This document shows, one piece after another, positions 4,012-9,328 of a DNA stretch of 64,000 nucleotides (position 1 is its first letter; every line of letters begins with the position of its first letter). Location: NCBI GenBank assembly GCA_016788165.1, contig JAEUTH010000008.1, forward strand, positions 62,001 to 126,000. Reading direction: 5' to 3'. Origin of the DNA: Bacteroidia bacterium (GTDB taxonomy: Bacteria > Bacteroidota > Bacteroidia > AKYH767-A > OLB10). Under the pieces are notes generated by a model. The model ran no database searches and had not been told where the DNA came from. It saw nothing but the letters and a program-made list of their open reading frames with translations. Position numbers and translations under genes: made by a program.

Positions 4012-4755
4012 TTATAACATTTGAGCTGTTTTGTTTATGCGTTGTTTCGTTGTTAAATCAATAATTTCGAAACGCCTTACTTCGTTAAACGAACCCATAT
4101 CGCTATCGCTGTTAATTAAAATGGCTCCAACCAGTATTACATATTTGCAATTGTAGGAGGTTAAGCTAACGAGTTCGTTTATGCGTTTGTCAATAGCTTC
4201 GTATATTACCTCTGTTGCTTCATAAAGTGGTGTTTTTGCATGCAGTATTCTGTTGCTTTCATTCAAAAGTATTTGCTCAATGGTATTCATTTGGTAATCT
4301 AGTTCCGTAACATTTCCGGGTATTATGATGTTGTTTATTAATTTGTTTAATGCACCTTTTGCGGCACCACAACAACCGCTGTTTTTACTCTGTCCGAAGC
4401 GATGAATTTCGCCTATAGTGCCATCTTTAGCAATGCCAATATGCGGGCCATAGTAAATAAATACAGCACCATCATCAGGTACATGGCTTGCGAAAGCGCC
4501 CATGCCGGTAAGGCCTGTAAACGGAAATCCATCTAAGCCGCCCATTTTAAATGGGCCTAAAAATTCCTGCGTACGTGCCGGGTATTGAATGCTGTTTACA
4601 TCATCACTGCAAATGCTATCAGCCAGCATTACTTGCTTGGGTTCTAAATCCAATTCATATTCAACATAATCAATTATACGGTTAACACTGTCAATAGTGG
4701 TAATCGCATTTGGATACCATTTGTGAATGATGCTTAGTTTATCTCTTTTTTTCAT
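4012..4755 (-). CDS. LCIB-family (theta-type) carbonic anhydrase-like protein
   Basis: Numbered from the ATG at 4755 (247 residues), the protein carries the signature of the low-CO2-inducible LCIB/LCIC family. These are CSDDVN at 49-54, LGPFKMGGLDGFPFTGLTG at 66-84, HVPDDG at 91-96, YGPHIGI at 102-108 and GQSKNSGCCGAA at 121-132. In this family a Cys-His-Cys set binds zinc in a beta-CA-like fold; here the candidates are C49, H91 and C128 or C129, with D51 as the nearby acidic residue. The predicted reaction is reversible CO2 hydration. An earlier in-frame ATG (4818) would run into the bestrophin gene, so I chose 4755, 10 bp after the bestrophin stop. It is the third gene of a tight unit with a K+ channel and a bestrophin. 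No signal peptide is seen, so it is cytoplasmic. Activity is inferred; some LCIB homologues test as inactive. Confidence 0.85.
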   Translation of the reverse strand: MKKRDKLSIIHKWYPNAITTIDSVNRIIDYVEYELDLEPKQVMLADSICSDDVNSIQYPARTQEFLGPFKMGGLDGFPFTGLTGMGAFASHVPDDGAVFIYYGPHIGIAKDGTIGEIHRFGQSKNSGCCGAAKGALNKLINNIIIPGNVTELDYQMNTIEQILLNESNRILHAKTPLYEATEVIYEAIDKRINELVSLTSYNCKYVILVGAILINSDSDMGSFNEVRRFEIIDLTTKQRINKTAQML

Positions 4756-4765
4756 AATATTAAAT

Positions 4766-5770
4766 TTATAGAACGATATTATTAACGGGTTGTATGGCAG
4801 GTGGCAATTCGGTTTCATCTAACATATCGCGCATATCAATTTCGATGGTACGGCTTATTTGTGTAATAGGAACATCTAACGAACTGCCTTCGAACGGGTT
4901 AACCGAACTTTCGCCAATTACATCAAGTGTTACAAATACCCACATTATCATCGTACAAAAAGGTACATTAAACCATAAGGAGTAGCCTTCTAAAAATGTA
5001 TCAAGGCCAAGCTTATTAAACTCAGGTAAAAGAGTAAATGGCACACTGATAACAAAAATAAAAAGTAAGTAGGTGGTTATTGATGCAAAGTTACGCGGAT
5101 AAGGAAAATTTTTTATTCGCTCAGCCCTGCCTTGTCCATCCGTAAATTTTATTAGGCATTCCTGCAATTGCTTCCATGCTACATCGTTTATTTTGTCTGC
5201 TTTATACATGTTTGCAATCGCTGCTGATTGCATGGCTACAAGTTGCGTAGCTTTATTTTTTTTTGTGATAACATAATTATAATCCTGTTCAGATAGAAGT
5301 TGTTTTAATATTTCATTCAGGTTTTCTGCTTTTTCAGGAATTCTATATTTCCTTAAATATTCCTTGTTATGCATCGAATCCATGTTTTCCCAGGTGCGGC
5401 TTTCACGTAATTGATGCCTGAGACAAGTAAGCCAGGCAAAATGCCGGTAAAAAATAATTTTTACATCCATATTGTTTTTGCTGCCAACAATATCTCTTAC
5501 TGTATATGCAAAGCTTCTGCTATCGTTTATTATGCTGCCGTAAATTTGACGTGCCTCCCAAATACGGCCATAACTTGCATTGTTTTTAAAGCCTACTACA
5601 AAGGCAACAGCCGTGCCCAATATTGCAACGGGTTGCCATGGAATAGTTATAAATTTCCATCCCAGACTGTACAATAATGTTGGAACAATTGCAATAAGAA
5701 AAAGTTTGAAAGTAATTCTTCTTGTCCAGTAAAAAAATTCGAAAGGAGTGTATCGTTTACCTGTATGCAT
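4766..5770 (-). CDS. Bestrophin-family anion channel
   Basis: The 334-residue protein matches prokaryotic bestrophins (YneE/RFP-TM family). It has an N-terminal FEFFYWTRRITFKLFLIAIV, the conserved GFKNNASYGRIWEAR after the second helix (about residues 59-73), and a late VIGESSVNPFEGSSLDVPI matching the family's PFG-x-D region. Membrane segments lie at about 18-38, 45-63, 229-250 and 266-288. Bestrophins form pentameric chloride or bicarbonate-permeable channels; bacterial ones have also been reported to conduct cations, so ion choice is open. The gene starts 5 bp after the K+ channel-like gene and ends 10 bp before the LCIB-like gene. That context favours a role in bicarbonate/CO2 handling (inference). 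The last residues, PPAIQPVNNIVL, are a poorly conserved tail. Confidence 0.88.
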   Translation of the reverse strand: MHTGKRYTPFEFFYWTRRITFKLFLIAIVPTLLYSLGWKFITIPWQPVAILGTAVAFVVGFKNNASYGRIWEARQIYGSIINDSRSFAYTVRDIVGSKNNMDVKIIFYRHFAWLTCLRHQLRESRTWENMDSMHNKEYLRKYRIPEKAENLNEILKQLLSEQDYNYVITKKNKATQLVAMQSAAIANMYKADKINDVAWKQLQECLIKFTDGQGRAERIKNFPYPRNFASITTYLLFIFVISVPFTLLPEFNKLGLDTFLEGYSLWFNVPFCTMIMWVFVTLDVIGESSVNPFEGSSLDVPITQISRTIEIDMRDMLDETELPPAIQPVNNIVL

Positions 5771-5775
5771 GTTCG

Positions 5776-6453
5776 TTATTTTGATTGTGTAGCGTTCGAA
5801 GTGAATTTGCTTACTAAAATTCCTACCAGTATAACGATATAAAATTGACCGGTTATGCCAAATAACGAAGTGAGTAATTTAGTATGATGTGTATTGGGTG
5901 TAATGTCGCCAAAGCCAATACTGGTAAGCGTTATAGAGCTAAAATATACCAAGTCCATATAAGTGCTGGCAGGGTTAGCTAAATTAATTCCATTAAACGA
6001 TTGCTCATTTTTGTAAACGAAATACTGCATAGTAAAGGTGCACGTTTCAATAAGTAAAAGGTATCCGCAGGCTGCAGCCGAAATAATATCTGTATTAATG
6101 TAACTGGGCTTTACCAAATAAATGAGTATTTCATAAAGTAGCCAAATAAAGTATATCACATACGTTATATTGAGTAATAAAAAGTAGTAGTGATTATTAT
6201 CGTTAAAGGCAAGGCCAATTGGCAATGCAATAATTACTAGAAAGAGTAAAAGCTGCAGTTGGTTTTTTAAACGACCTTTTTCAATAAAAATACCCACACT
6301 TGATACACCTACAATAAGCATATTTATTGGCCAAATTATTTTCGTATAAAAATTCAGGTCTTCTATGAAAATGCCAATATATAGGTGTTGCAAAATTGCT
6401 ATAAGCAATAATTCATATTTGATTTTGGATATTTGGTTGAGAATAGGTTGCAT
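5776..6453 (-). CDS. Six-helix potassium channel-like protein
   Basis: This 225-residue membrane protein has helices at about 13-30, 39-57, 67-83, 88-113, 122-146 and 194-216. A pore loop lies between the last two. The selectivity-filter segment SSITLTSIGFGDITP (residues 172-186) matches the K+ channel T-V/I-G-Y/F-G-D signature, with S178-I-G-F-G-D183. There is no arginine-rich voltage-sensor helix and no cytoplasmic RCK domain, so gating is unknown. It resembles Ion_trans_2 proteins. It is the first gene of the unit; the bestrophin gene begins 5 bp later. A K+ pathway beside an anion channel could balance charge during bicarbonate or chloride flux (inference). Confidence 0.8.
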   Translation of the reverse strand: MQPILNQISKIKYELLLIAILQHLYIGIFIEDLNFYTKIIWPINMLIVGVSSVGIFIEKGRLKNQLQLLLFLVIIALPIGLAFNDNNHYYFLLLNITYVIYFIWLLYEILIYLVKPSYINTDIISAAACGYLLLIETCTFTMQYFVYKNEQSFNGINLANPASTYMDLVYFSSITLTSIGFGDITPNTHHTKLLTSLFGITGQFYIVILVGILVSKFTSNATQSK

Positions 6454-6755
6454 GTCCCGAAAACTAATTTAATGCCGGCTATTGTACTTAGCCCGATGCG
6501 AAATAAATAGTTGCAATAGCTAAAACAAATAAATTTCGACTAACGGTTTTTACAATACGTCTTTGGGGCTATTTATTTTTAATCTAAGCAAATCATTTAT
6601 CTGCAAGGAATTTGCGTAAGAATGTACATTGTATAATGTGCATTAAACTTTGACAAAAAAAAGCCTAACAAATTTGTTTGTTTCAAACTTGTTAGGCACA
6701 ATGCAAAGTGTTAGGTGCTATAAAATATAGCTTTTAATACATAATATTGAAGTGT
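6454..6755. other. Intergenic spacer between two minus-strand operons
   Basis: This 302 bp AT-rich stretch has no supported gene. It holds the intrinsic terminator of the upstream NO-stress operon (6653-6697). The remainder, toward 6454, must contain the promoter of the K+ channel-bestrophin-LCIB unit. I see no convincing operator there. Confidence 0.6.
6653..6697 (-). terminator. Rho-independent terminator of the NO-stress operon
   Basis: A 14 bp inverted repeat (arms 6663-6676 and 6684-6697, core GCCTAACAA/TTGTTAGGC, one mismatch) has a 7-base loop. On the minus strand it is followed by a run of eight T (6655-6662 read in reverse). It lies about 60 bp beyond the stop of the hemerythrin gene, as expected for the end of that operon. 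Confidence 0.85.
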
Positions 6756-7220
6756 TTAATGTTTCTCTTTCCAAAATTCATCTGGCCAAGTTTCGCAAAA
6801 ATCATGTGTATGTTCTGACAGTACTCGCATTTGACTTTCATTCGCTACATTTTCTATTTCATTAAACAAAACCCGCTCTTCAAAACGGATATGTTGTTCA
6901 AGTAAATCGGCAATAGAAGCTAATAAATTTTCATCCCAATTCGAATCATTAAATTTTTGTTTCAATTGGTTATGTTCCAAAAGTGCTTGTGCAACAAGCG
7001 TATTGTTATTACCCAATATCGGAAACAGAAAAGCTTCTTCAGTTTCGAAATGCTGAAGCAAATGCGCACCCCAAAACCATTTTGCATAATCCGTTATACG
7101 GCTTAGCGCAACATGCTGCTTTATTCCCGTTCTGATTTTCCAACAAAACAGCAAGCCGGTATGATGTTCGCGACTGAGGGGCTGCATATTAGGATGCCGT
7201 TTTATGGGTTTGTTTTCCAT
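6756..7220 (-). CDS. Hemerythrin HHE-domain protein
   Basis: The 154-residue protein has the spaced His/Glu pattern of a four-helix hemerythrin-like di-iron domain. It has SREHHTGLLF near the start, HLLQHFETEEAFLFP in the second helix, LEHNQL in the third and QHIRFEERVLFNEIE in the fourth. It would be cytoplasmic. It is the last gene of the Rrf2-hemoglobin-RIC operon, starting 8 bp after ric. A role in NO or oxygen sensing, or in iron handling during nitrosative stress, is inferred from this context. It lacks the N-terminal ScdA domain of its neighbour, so it is a stand-alone HHE protein rather than a second RIC. Confidence 0.85.
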   Translation of the reverse strand: MENKPIKRHPNMQPLSREHHTGLLFCWKIRTGIKQHVALSRITDYAKWFWGAHLLQHFETEEAFLFPILGNNNTLVAQALLEHNQLKQKFNDSNWDENLLASIADLLEQHIRFEERVLFNEIENVANESQMRVLSEHTHDFCETWPDEFWKEKH

Positions 7221-7228
7221 AATTTCTG

Positions 7229-7960
7229 TTAGTTTTCTGAAGTCAGATTTTTTTCGAGCGTGATGGCCTGTGGAAATAATATGTTGTTTTCGAGATGTAT
7301 GTGTTGATGTAAATCTTCTTCAAATTCTTTAAGTAATGCATAGGTAACTTTGTATGTATTGCAGGCATCATTTGGTGGCTGATAGTCTTGTGTAAGTTCT
7401 GCAATTTTTCTAAAACGATCGCCTTCATTGGTATGTTCATTCATCATCATTTGAATGGGATTTTTTACCGTGCCAAATGGTGCTTGTATGGTGGTGCCTG
7501 TTTGTTTTGCATTTTCCATTTTTCGGATAAAGGGAAATAAAATCAGTTCTTCTTTTTTCATGTGCATAGCCAATTCGCCTGCCGACTCATTAAAAAGGGT
7601 TTCAACTTCGAACAGTTCAGGGTGTTTGTCGCCATGTACGCGTGCTACTTTGTGTAGAAAGGGATTAATCTCCTGAATTTTATTTTCAACATACCGGTGA
7701 TGTTTTTTTTCAATATAATCAGCCAATAAATCTAAAGGCCATTTCGTAAAGTCCTGGTTAGATGCATCAGTACTATTTGCTGTTACTTCTTCAAGTAGTT
7801 TAATTACCGTTTCTGTATTTTTTTGTTTCTGTACACAGGCATCTTCGATAGTGCGATTGCCGTTGCAACAAAAATCAATTCCGTTTTGTTTAAAAACGGA
7901 TGCAGTACGGTAGTCGTTTGCAACCAGATTGCCTATAATGGTGTCTTTGGTAATGTTCAT
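7229..7960 (-). CDS. ric: Iron-sulfur cluster repair di-iron protein (RIC/YtfE/ScdA)
   Basis: This 243-residue protein has the two-part RIC layout. The N-terminal ScdA_N domain contains FKQNGIDFCCNGNRTIEDAC with the diagnostic CC pair (C31-C32). The C-terminal hemerythrin-like domain contains HHRYVENK, HGDKHPELFE, HMKKEELILFPF, NEHTNEGD and HLENNILFPQA, supplying the di-iron ligands. RIC proteins help restore Fe-S clusters damaged by NO and peroxide. The gene follows the membrane protein gene by 33 bp and precedes the HHE gene by 8 bp. Regulation by the first gene of the operon, an Rrf2 protein, is likely. The assignment is firm at family level. Confidence 0.92.
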   Translation of the reverse strand: MNITKDTIIGNLVANDYRTASVFKQNGIDFCCNGNRTIEDACVQKQKNTETVIKLLEEVTANSTDASNQDFTKWPLDLLADYIEKKHHRYVENKIQEINPFLHKVARVHGDKHPELFEVETLFNESAGELAMHMKKEELILFPFIRKMENAKQTGTTIQAPFGTVKNPIQMMMNEHTNEGDRFRKIAELTQDYQPPNDACNTYKVTYALLKEFEEDLHQHIHLENNILFPQAITLEKNLTSEN

Positions 7961-7993
7961 GATTTTAAAGTTTTTATGTAAATAATATTTTAT

Positions 7994-8443
7994 TTAAGTG
8001 CTTAGTTGCTTGTTGTTTCGAAACTGTGATATGCCAAACAGACTTAAACCTGTAACTTTTATTACCTCTAAAACAACAAAGTAGTAGTGCAGGTTTGAAG
8101 CGGGTGGAGTTTGACCTTGCACATATTGTTCAGCTCTAGCATCTAATGCAGGTAAAAGCCAAATAGTTTGTAGTAATAAAATTGAAATAGTTATCAGGTA
8201 CCAACTATTGAATGTTACTTTATACTGTTTTGCATAAATTATATTTCCTAATACTGATAGCGCAAAAATCCATTCAACTTTATTTAATGCATTAAACACC
8301 AAGCGGCCGATACTAAGGCCAATAGGTAAAGTTACACCGGGTGCCGTAAATTTTAGCCAGGCTTCCATAAAACTAATAGAGCATACATAACCTATCCAAA
8401 CAAATGTAACTATAGCAGCTACGGGCATCCTTACTGTAATCAT
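7994..8443 (-). CDS. Four-helix integral membrane protein of the NO-stress operon
   Basis: I do not recognise a named family. The 149 residues contain about four hydrophobic helices (roughly 5-28, 47-68, 78-98 and 122-143), no signal peptide and no metal-binding cysteine pair. Polar features are an FMEAWLKF segment after helix 1 and an LPALDARAEQYVQGQ loop before helix 4. The start overlaps the truncated hemoglobin stop as ATGA, so the two are translationally coupled and probably work in the same process. A membrane partner for the hemoglobin or a haem/NO-related function is possible but only inferred from position. Confidence 0.7.
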   Translation of the reverse strand: MITVRMPVAAIVTFVWIGYVCSISFMEAWLKFTAPGVTLPIGLSIGRLVFNALNKVEWIFALSVLGNIIYAKQYKVTFNSWYLITISILLLQTIWLLPALDARAEQYVQGQTPPASNLHYYFVVLEVIKVTGLSLFGISQFRNNKQLST

Positions 8444-8844
8444 ATTAATGGTATTGAAGAATTGTTTCGGTAATATTCAATTTTTGACAGGAACATGGTT
8501 GCCATTCTATCGCCCTGCCATTTGGCACGGTTTGCTTTTTCTCCTTCAAATAGCATGTCAATAGTTTCGCTAAAAAGTTTAACCCATCTTTCGAAATGAG
8601 CGGCATTTACCGGAAGTTTTGCATGTGGCAAAAACGGACTACCAAAATAGGTATGCTCTTCAAGTAGTACTGTTTGCCAAAATCGGTACATTTTTTCCAA
8701 ATGTTGTGGCCATTTATCCTTTATTACATCATTAAATATGGTTGCAAGCACATCATCAGTTCTTACTTTATCGTAAAAGCTATTCACAAATATTTTTATG
8801 TCTTCCAGATTATTTATATCACTCTTTTGTGTTTTGATGTCCAT
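8440..8844 (-). CDS. Group III truncated hemoglobin
   Basis: The 134-residue protein matches group III truncated hemoglobins. FYDKVRTDDVLATIF has the B10 tyrosine (Y24), and W45, FGSPFLPHAKL and AAHFERWVKLF are present, with H83 as the proximal haem ligand. FEGEKANRAKWQGDRMATMF fits the G-H region. These small haem proteins bind O2 or NO; in NO-responsive operons they are thought to protect against nitrosative stress or aid respiration at low oxygen. The gene is second in the operon, 49 bp after the Rrf2 regulator, and shares an ATGA overlap with the membrane protein gene. Confidence 0.88.
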   Translation of the reverse strand: MDIKTQKSDINNLEDIKIFVNSFYDKVRTDDVLATIFNDVIKDKWPQHLEKMYRFWQTVLLEEHTYFGSPFLPHAKLPVNAAHFERWVKLFSETIDMLFEGEKANRAKWQGDRMATMFLSKIEYYRNNSSIPLI

Positions 8845-8893
8845 TTTAGATTGTGTTTTATTTTTGATAAGCTTATGTATTTATCTGAAAAAA

Positions 8894-9328
8894 TTAATGC
8901 TTTAAAAAGGTTAATCCCATTTCAAATCCTTGTGCCAACGATTTTATGGTAGTTGTTTCGAGCATGTTTTTTAAATCTTCGCGTATGGCTTTAAATTGAT
9001 AATGTACGGGACAAGGTTTTTTTTCATTGCACATACTTAAGCCCAGTCCGCAGCCGGTGTAAACCTTATTTCCATCAATTGCAGTTACTATGGCACTGAG
9101 CTTAATCTTATCCAGGTTTTTGGCTTCAATTGAAAAACCACCCGTAGGGCCTTTATCAGATTTAATAAGGCTGTTACGCACCAATTGTTGCAGTATTTTT
9201 GACGTGTATGCTTCGGGCGATTTAATGGCTTTGGCTACATCTTTTAAACTGGTTTTGCGGCCGTTTAGTGATTGCTCGGTTATAAAAATTGCGGAACGAA
9301 TTCCGTACTCACATGCTTTTGAAAACAT
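8894..9328 (-). CDS. Rrf2-family transcriptional regulator, NsrR/IscR-like
   Basis: The 144-residue protein begins MFSKACEYGIRSAIF, the winged-helix start typical of Rrf2 proteins. It contains SPEAYTSKILQQLVRNSLI as the recognition helix and GPTGGFSI as the wing. Three cysteines, C93, C100 and C106 (GCGLGLSMCNEKKPCPVH), lie where NsrR and IscR bind an Fe-S cluster. It heads an operon of hemoglobin, RIC and hemerythrin genes, which points to NO sensing (NsrR-like) rather than Fe-S biogenesis control. A palindrome about 47 bp upstream of the start is a good autoregulatory operator. The family is sure; the signal is inferred. Confidence 0.88.
   Translation of the reverse strand: MFSKACEYGIRSAIFITEQSLNGRKTSLKDVAKAIKSPEAYTSKILQQLVRNSLIKSDKGPTGGFSIEAKNLDKIKLSAIVTAIDGNKVYTGCGLGLSMCNEKKPCPVHYQFKAIREDLKNMLETTTIKSLAQGFEMGLTFLKH

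Follow-up and report, generated by a model that had tools for sequence, protein, structure and literature searches.

A three-gene unit of a K+-channel-like protein, a bestrophin and an LCIB-type carbonic anhydrase in a Bacteroidia genome: a probable bicarbonate-flux module with exchangeable parts

The window, a stretch of 64,000 nucleotides from a Bacteroidia bacterium, carries three closely spaced genes on the minus strand, preceded by a leader region and a hairpin:

6663-6697 (-): terminator-like hairpin, 14-bp stem followed by T8, closing the upstream hemerythrin gene and marking the 5' border of the unit
6454-6662 (-): leader/promoter region of the unit, between the hairpin and the first start codon
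5776-6453 (-): K+-channel-like gene, 225 aa, Pfam Ion_trans_2 (E 1.4e-12)
4766-5770 (-): bestrophin gene, 334 aa, Pfam Bestrophin_2 (PF25539, E 7.2e-42)
4012-4755 (-): LCIB-type beta-carbonic anhydrase (CA) gene, 247 aa, Pfam LCIB_C_CA (PF18599, E 1.1e-77)

An earlier note had placed these three genes here head to tail, 5 and 10 bp apart, and the open reading frames together with the Pfam matches bear this out. The mechanically called LCIB frame starts at 4818, within the bestrophin gene, but the N termini of the homologues (MKKREKL...) point to the ATG at 4755 as the start; with this start codon the gaps are indeed 5 and 10 bp. Since the hairpin at 6697-6663(-) terminates the hemerythrin gene, the K+ channel gene is the first of the unit, followed by the bestrophin and then the LCIB gene. 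The spacing and the flanking hairpin suggest that the three genes are co-transcribed as an operon. A sigma-70 promoter for the unit was considered and rejected, since sigma-70-like matches in 6454-6662 were no commoner than in shuffles. Adjoining the unit upstream (6756-9328) is a likely nitrosative-stress / Fe-S repair cluster, in which a hemerythrin and a ScdA/Ric-like hemerythrin were confirmed by Pfam, and a globin-like protein and an Rrf2-like regulator were judged by sequence appearance only.

The LCIB protein matches the PF18599 profile with 260.7 bits (cut-off 25), and the motifs quoted in the earlier note are all found (CSDDVN at residues 49-54, HVPDDG at 91-96 and GQSKNSGCCG at 121-130). 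The predicted zinc ligands are C49, H91 and C128/C129, accompanied by D51 and R119. Together with S50, these residues align with C46, S47, D48, H88, R116 and C125/126 of the diatom protein PtLCIB4 (numbers from our own counting on the alignment), and in eight bacterial LCIB homologues all of them are invariant except S50, which is Ser or Cys. A loss of the zinc ligands relative to active LCIB homologues, which the earlier note had wanted checked, is thus not seen. PtLCIB3 and PtLCIB4 are reported to be active, and Chlamydomonas LCIB is without CA activity in vitro (PMC9614477, PMC5876011); in its active-site residues the window protein goes with the active PtLCIB4, unlike the Chlamydomonas comparison system, and it is a candidate active CA. 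LCIB is single-copy in the source genome, and a search of a plasmid collection for LCIB gave no match. A separate canonical beta-CA (Pro_CA) is encoded elsewhere in the source genome, and Pro_CA also occurs in the other LCIB-containing genomes of the same class in the phylum sample, so that the idea of LCIB as a stand-in for a missing CA was discarded. As a criterion for a CO2-concentrating mechanism, we searched for the RuBisCO large subunit and found none in the whole source genome, consistent with the earlier remark that no phototrophy genes were in view.

The bestrophin resembles KpBest in sequence (E 5.6e-21) and shares the fold of KpBest and other prokaryotic bestrophins: its AlphaFold2 model (pLDDT 89) matches KpBest in Foldseek with an E of about 2e-12 and a TM-score of about 0.7 when normalised to the query and 0.87 when normalised to the target length. 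According to the alignment, its neck consists of Thr53/Phe57/Phe61, with Phe57 at the position of Ile66 in KpBest and Phe80 in hBest1. KpBest is a Na+ channel that is shifted towards Cl- by I66F, and hBest1, which passes HCO3-, shows reduced Cl- permeability with F80I (PMC8496536). All aligned LCIB-linked bestrophins have Phe in the neck, and Ile is found in a separate KpBest-like clade. Thus, Phe57 appears to be of the anion type and may favour anions in the LCIB-linked bestrophins, and the window protein is a candidate for HCO3- permeation. Since Phe is also present in bestrophins without an LCIB neighbour outside the KpBest-like clade, it is no mark of LCIB linkage.

The K+-channel-like protein has six predicted transmembrane helices and a pore helix, without a cytosolic regulatory domain. 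Its filter TSIGFGD, conserved in the homologues, lies between the pore helix and the last transmembrane helix, and the fourth transmembrane helix (about residues 88-114) lacks the regularly spaced Arg/Lys of a voltage-gated (Kv) channel. The best Foldseek matches of the AlphaFold2 model (pLDDT 82, pTM 0.83) are all K+ channels, with a probability of about 1 but a weak E of only about 0.01; the protein is probably K+ selective. The 13 homologues share 33-70% identity with it. This channel family is seldom met: it was found in 10 of 395 genomes, seven times as a close match, and a bestrophin adjoins four of the seven close matches. Frequent neighbours of the K+ channel gene are an SDR oxidoreductase and a small DoxX-like membrane protein (L039, L072, L146, L220), joined in some of these loci by an NTF2-like protein, all named from sequence appearance; the SDR/DoxX-like flanks also occur where the bestrophin is absent (L220).

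The linkage is conserved in other genomes, where the earlier note had proposed to look for it. The window's type of LCIB was found in two more of 60 relatives, with a bestrophin directly upstream in both. Among 87 LCIB loci (80 from a genome scan that yields the loci most similar to the query, and seven further loci), a bestrophin adjoins LCIB on the same strand in 49, with gaps mostly below 25 bp, and a K+ channel is also present in 13 of the 49. Most rows of the query alignment come from bestrophin-linked loci, and at least one locus is common to the set of relatives and the scanned set (L035 is identical to L097, both without bestrophin). Judging from gene number, chance adjacency would be expected in a few per thousand, well below what is observed. 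The orders with LCIB loci include Cytophagales, Flavobacteriales, Sphingobacteriales, Chitinophagales and Saprospirales, and both gene orders occur, with LCIB preceding the bestrophin in L085, L090, L130, L138 and L141. Same-clade LCIB genes without a bestrophin nearby make up 36 of the 87 loci; in the near-misses L122 and L123, a bestrophin and an exchanger lie about 4-5 kb from LCIB. In Foetidibacter (L077), an internally deleted bestrophin with both ends kept lies between the K+ channel and LCIB. Bestrophins broken by a frameshift, stop or internal deletion beside an intact CA gene were seen at L149:4956-5974, L162:6001-7020 and L077:5622-5950.

Several further readings were rejected. The linkage does not hold for LCIB proteins in general, since the remaining LCIB clades of the phylum sample, among them the families f46 and f69, are without a nearby bestrophin. 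An apparent bestrophin-LCIB fusion in G049, a 582-aa open frame, is an overlapping-frame artefact of two separate, overlapping genes. The same genome shows a probable urea-transporter gene, by sequence appearance, convergent on its bestrophin-LCIB pair (L034/L003). A MAG that carries the name Chthonomonas, and would fall outside Bacteroidota if correctly named, has a unit of bestrophin, LCIB and TMEM175 beside genes that look like clpP/clpX by sequence (L144/L228); linkage as a feature of that phylum was dismissed, as neither of two further LCIB genes from it has a bestrophin nearby.

The linkage to LCIB changes at least 12 times on the bestrophin tree and 17 times on the LCIB tree, and several separate bestrophin lineages are linked. 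The window LCIB groups with L070-L080 (a starred set of 15; 86% to L070). The window bestrophin falls into a different starred group, whose members are for the most part linked to Na+/H+ exchangers, with 63% to L122 versus 47% to L070. These quick trees suggest that the window unit is recombined, the bestrophin having been swapped inside a surviving unit.

Exchange of parts, including a beta-CA in place of LCIB, does not figure in the earlier note. In LCIB-bestrophin units, the place of the cation transporter is taken by a Na+/H+ exchanger in L033, L130, L138 and L141 and by a TMEM175 K+ channel, unrelated to the window's channel, in L144. Away from LCIB, a canonical beta-CA (Pro_CA) lies beside related bestrophins in L154 (4 bp) and L162 (14 bp), and in L204 the genes of a beta-CA, a bestrophin and TMEM175 overlap by 4 bp each, the bestrophin belonging to the KpBest-like clade with neck Ile. 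Non-LCIB bestrophins adjoin a Na+/H+ exchanger in L156-L159 and L180, TMEM175 in L152, L198 and L209-L211, and a K+ channel of the window's family in L205. TMEM175 and the exchanger thus fill the position that the P-loop K+ channel, to which they are unrelated in fold or mechanism, has in the unit of the window. In an unbiased clustering of the immediate neighbours of bestrophins not adjoining LCIB, TMEM175 (6 loci) and the Na+/H+ exchanger (5) were the top identified families; two further clusters of five loci each, without a family name, recur. One protein family without a name recurs beside KpBest-like bestrophins in L198, L203, L205, L206 and L208, with gaps of 2-26 bp. In one bestrophin-LCIB subgroup, an uncharacterised, probably membrane protein of ~165 aa overlaps the bestrophin start (L143:1070-1567, L132:555-1052, L121:4515-5012, L117:513-1097; the L132 member has no Pfam match) and may be another slot-filler.

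We consider it most probable, at about 0.6, that the operon is a bicarbonate-flux module made of a CA, a HCO3--conducting bestrophin and a charge- or pH-balancing cation path. The cytoplasmic LCIB-type CA would interconvert CO2 and HCO3-, the pentameric bestrophin would carry HCO3- across the inner membrane, and the K+ channel would provide a parallel cation current, making the net flux (K+ plus HCO3-) near-electroneutral. With an inside-negative potential, this flux would most likely be outward: metabolic CO2 would be hydrated and HCO3- would exit with K+ while H+ is retained, so that the cytoplasm would be acid-loaded and salt released. In the versions with a Na+/H+ exchanger, H+ would be adjusted directly. 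Such a module would fit pH and ion/volume homeostasis, for instance where the surroundings are alkaline or rich in CO2. By our calculation, passive HCO3- at -120 mV would reach an inside/outside ratio of about 0.01, and, given CO2 equilibration across the membrane, HCO3- would enter only if the outside pH exceeded the inside pH by about 2 units; export is thus the likely direction. Since H+ would be retained, K+ would balance the charge and the exchanger would adjust H+, acid-base and ion homeostasis is favoured, with pH control as the favoured role. Against the module count the 36 same-clade loci that lack a nearby bestrophin, the LCIB clades elsewhere in the phylum sample, which are never linked to a bestrophin, and the presence of the K+ channel in only a minority of units. 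The inactivity of Chlamydomonas LCIB in vitro and the neck Ile of the KpBest-like clade, seen even beside the beta-CA of L204, speak against it as well. HCO3- is perhaps not the sole ion, because some related bestrophins have a Na+/H+ exchanger or TMEM175 as neighbour but no CA.

The earlier note had already read the locus as a bicarbonate module with charge balance, and this part is supported by the adjacency, the zinc ligands and the refilled cation slot; its suggestion of anaplerotic CO2 supply is not supported. Uptake of bicarbonate for anaplerotic carboxylation, in the manner of the heterotroph DIC system MpsAB and with the K+ channel balancing the charge, would require just such a CA and HCO3- path, and MpsAB shows that heterotrophs need such a system at ambient CO2 (PMC6689103). 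However, bestrophins are passive, and an anion channel of this kind would mostly export, the inward route depending on the pH difference calculated above. The canonical beta-CA in the source genome and in the other LCIB-containing genomes of the class in the phylum sample should already supply the carboxylases with HCO3-, which makes uptake less likely, and we regard it as improbable. We give no more credit to a release of turgor or volume by a parallel K+/anion leak (KCl or KHCO3), in which the CA would merely buffer the pH change. It would resemble the regulatory volume decrease of animal cells, and two unrelated K+ channel families do pair with bestrophins, also without a CA (L152, L198, L205, L209-L211); but a CA beside the bestrophin is commoner than a K+ channel (49 versus 13, a biased comparison since the set was found through LCIB), and the versions with a Na+/H+ exchanger are ill-suited to a simple osmolyte valve.

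It is less likely still that the bestrophin is a Na+ channel like KpBest (PMC8496536) in a unit that sets the Na+/K+/H+ balance with the CA as proton buffer. Although every partner transporter has K+, Na+ or H+ as its substrate, the LCIB-linked bestrophins carry the anion-type neck Phe, and the KpBest-like Ile occurs only in a separate clade. That the genes are accidental neighbours, or hitch-hikers on a mobile cassette without functional coupling, we hold to be very improbable. LCIB proteins 85-87% identical between orders do suggest horizontal transfer, but the adjacency was re-formed in several bestrophin lineages and in both gene orders, and the CA and cation parts were replaced by non-homologous equivalents.

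The bicarbonate-flux module has its closest parallel in the CO2-concentrating mechanism of Chlamydomonas, where LCIB/LCIC is reported to interact with BST1/BST3 and the BSTs are proposed to move HCO3- from stroma to lumen (PMC6708349). The algal LCIB/LCIC and BST1-3 belong to the same two protein families as the window proteins, and the topology agrees with the proposed export: the CA lies where an energised membrane is negative and the bestrophin leads HCO3- away, topologically outward. In the alga, the proteins work in a RuBisCO/pyrenoid context; in the window, they are encoded in a probable operon that also includes a K+ channel, and the genome is without RuBisCO. In MpsAB/DAB, too, a single operon couples a CA-like protein to a membrane protein, and heterotrophs are among the carriers (PMC6689103; for DAB2, PMC13144422), but they belong to other protein families and mediate energy-coupled uptake instead of a passive channel flux. 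KpBest differs from the LCIB-linked bestrophins as a Na+ channel with neck Ile rather than Phe. Our literature search found no description of a CA partner of KpBest or of a physiological role of bacterial bestrophins; nor did titles and abstracts of open-licence papers describe bestrophin-LCIB-type units, which may be mentioned elsewhere. The parts are known, and their bacterial combination and the interchangeable slots appear to be new.

A broader claim, to which we lean somewhat less than evenly, is that bacteria possess a modular bicarbonate-export unit, consisting of a bestrophin, an exchangeable CA and an exchangeable K+ channel or Na+/H+ exchanger, which would give a large group of prokaryotic bestrophins a physiological role. 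Whether LCIB is an active CA that works with bestrophins is debated. With a compact unit of three genes in Bacteroidota that can be cultured (Flavobacterium, Pedobacter, Chryseobacterium, Emticicia), this question and that of the role of bacterial bestrophins become testable without chloroplasts. For engineering, it would offer a ready-made, perhaps constitutively active pair of CA and bicarbonate channel. If the broader claim is true, algae would, with their pairing of LCIB and bestrophin, make one particular use of a coupling that bacteria have outside photosynthesis as well.
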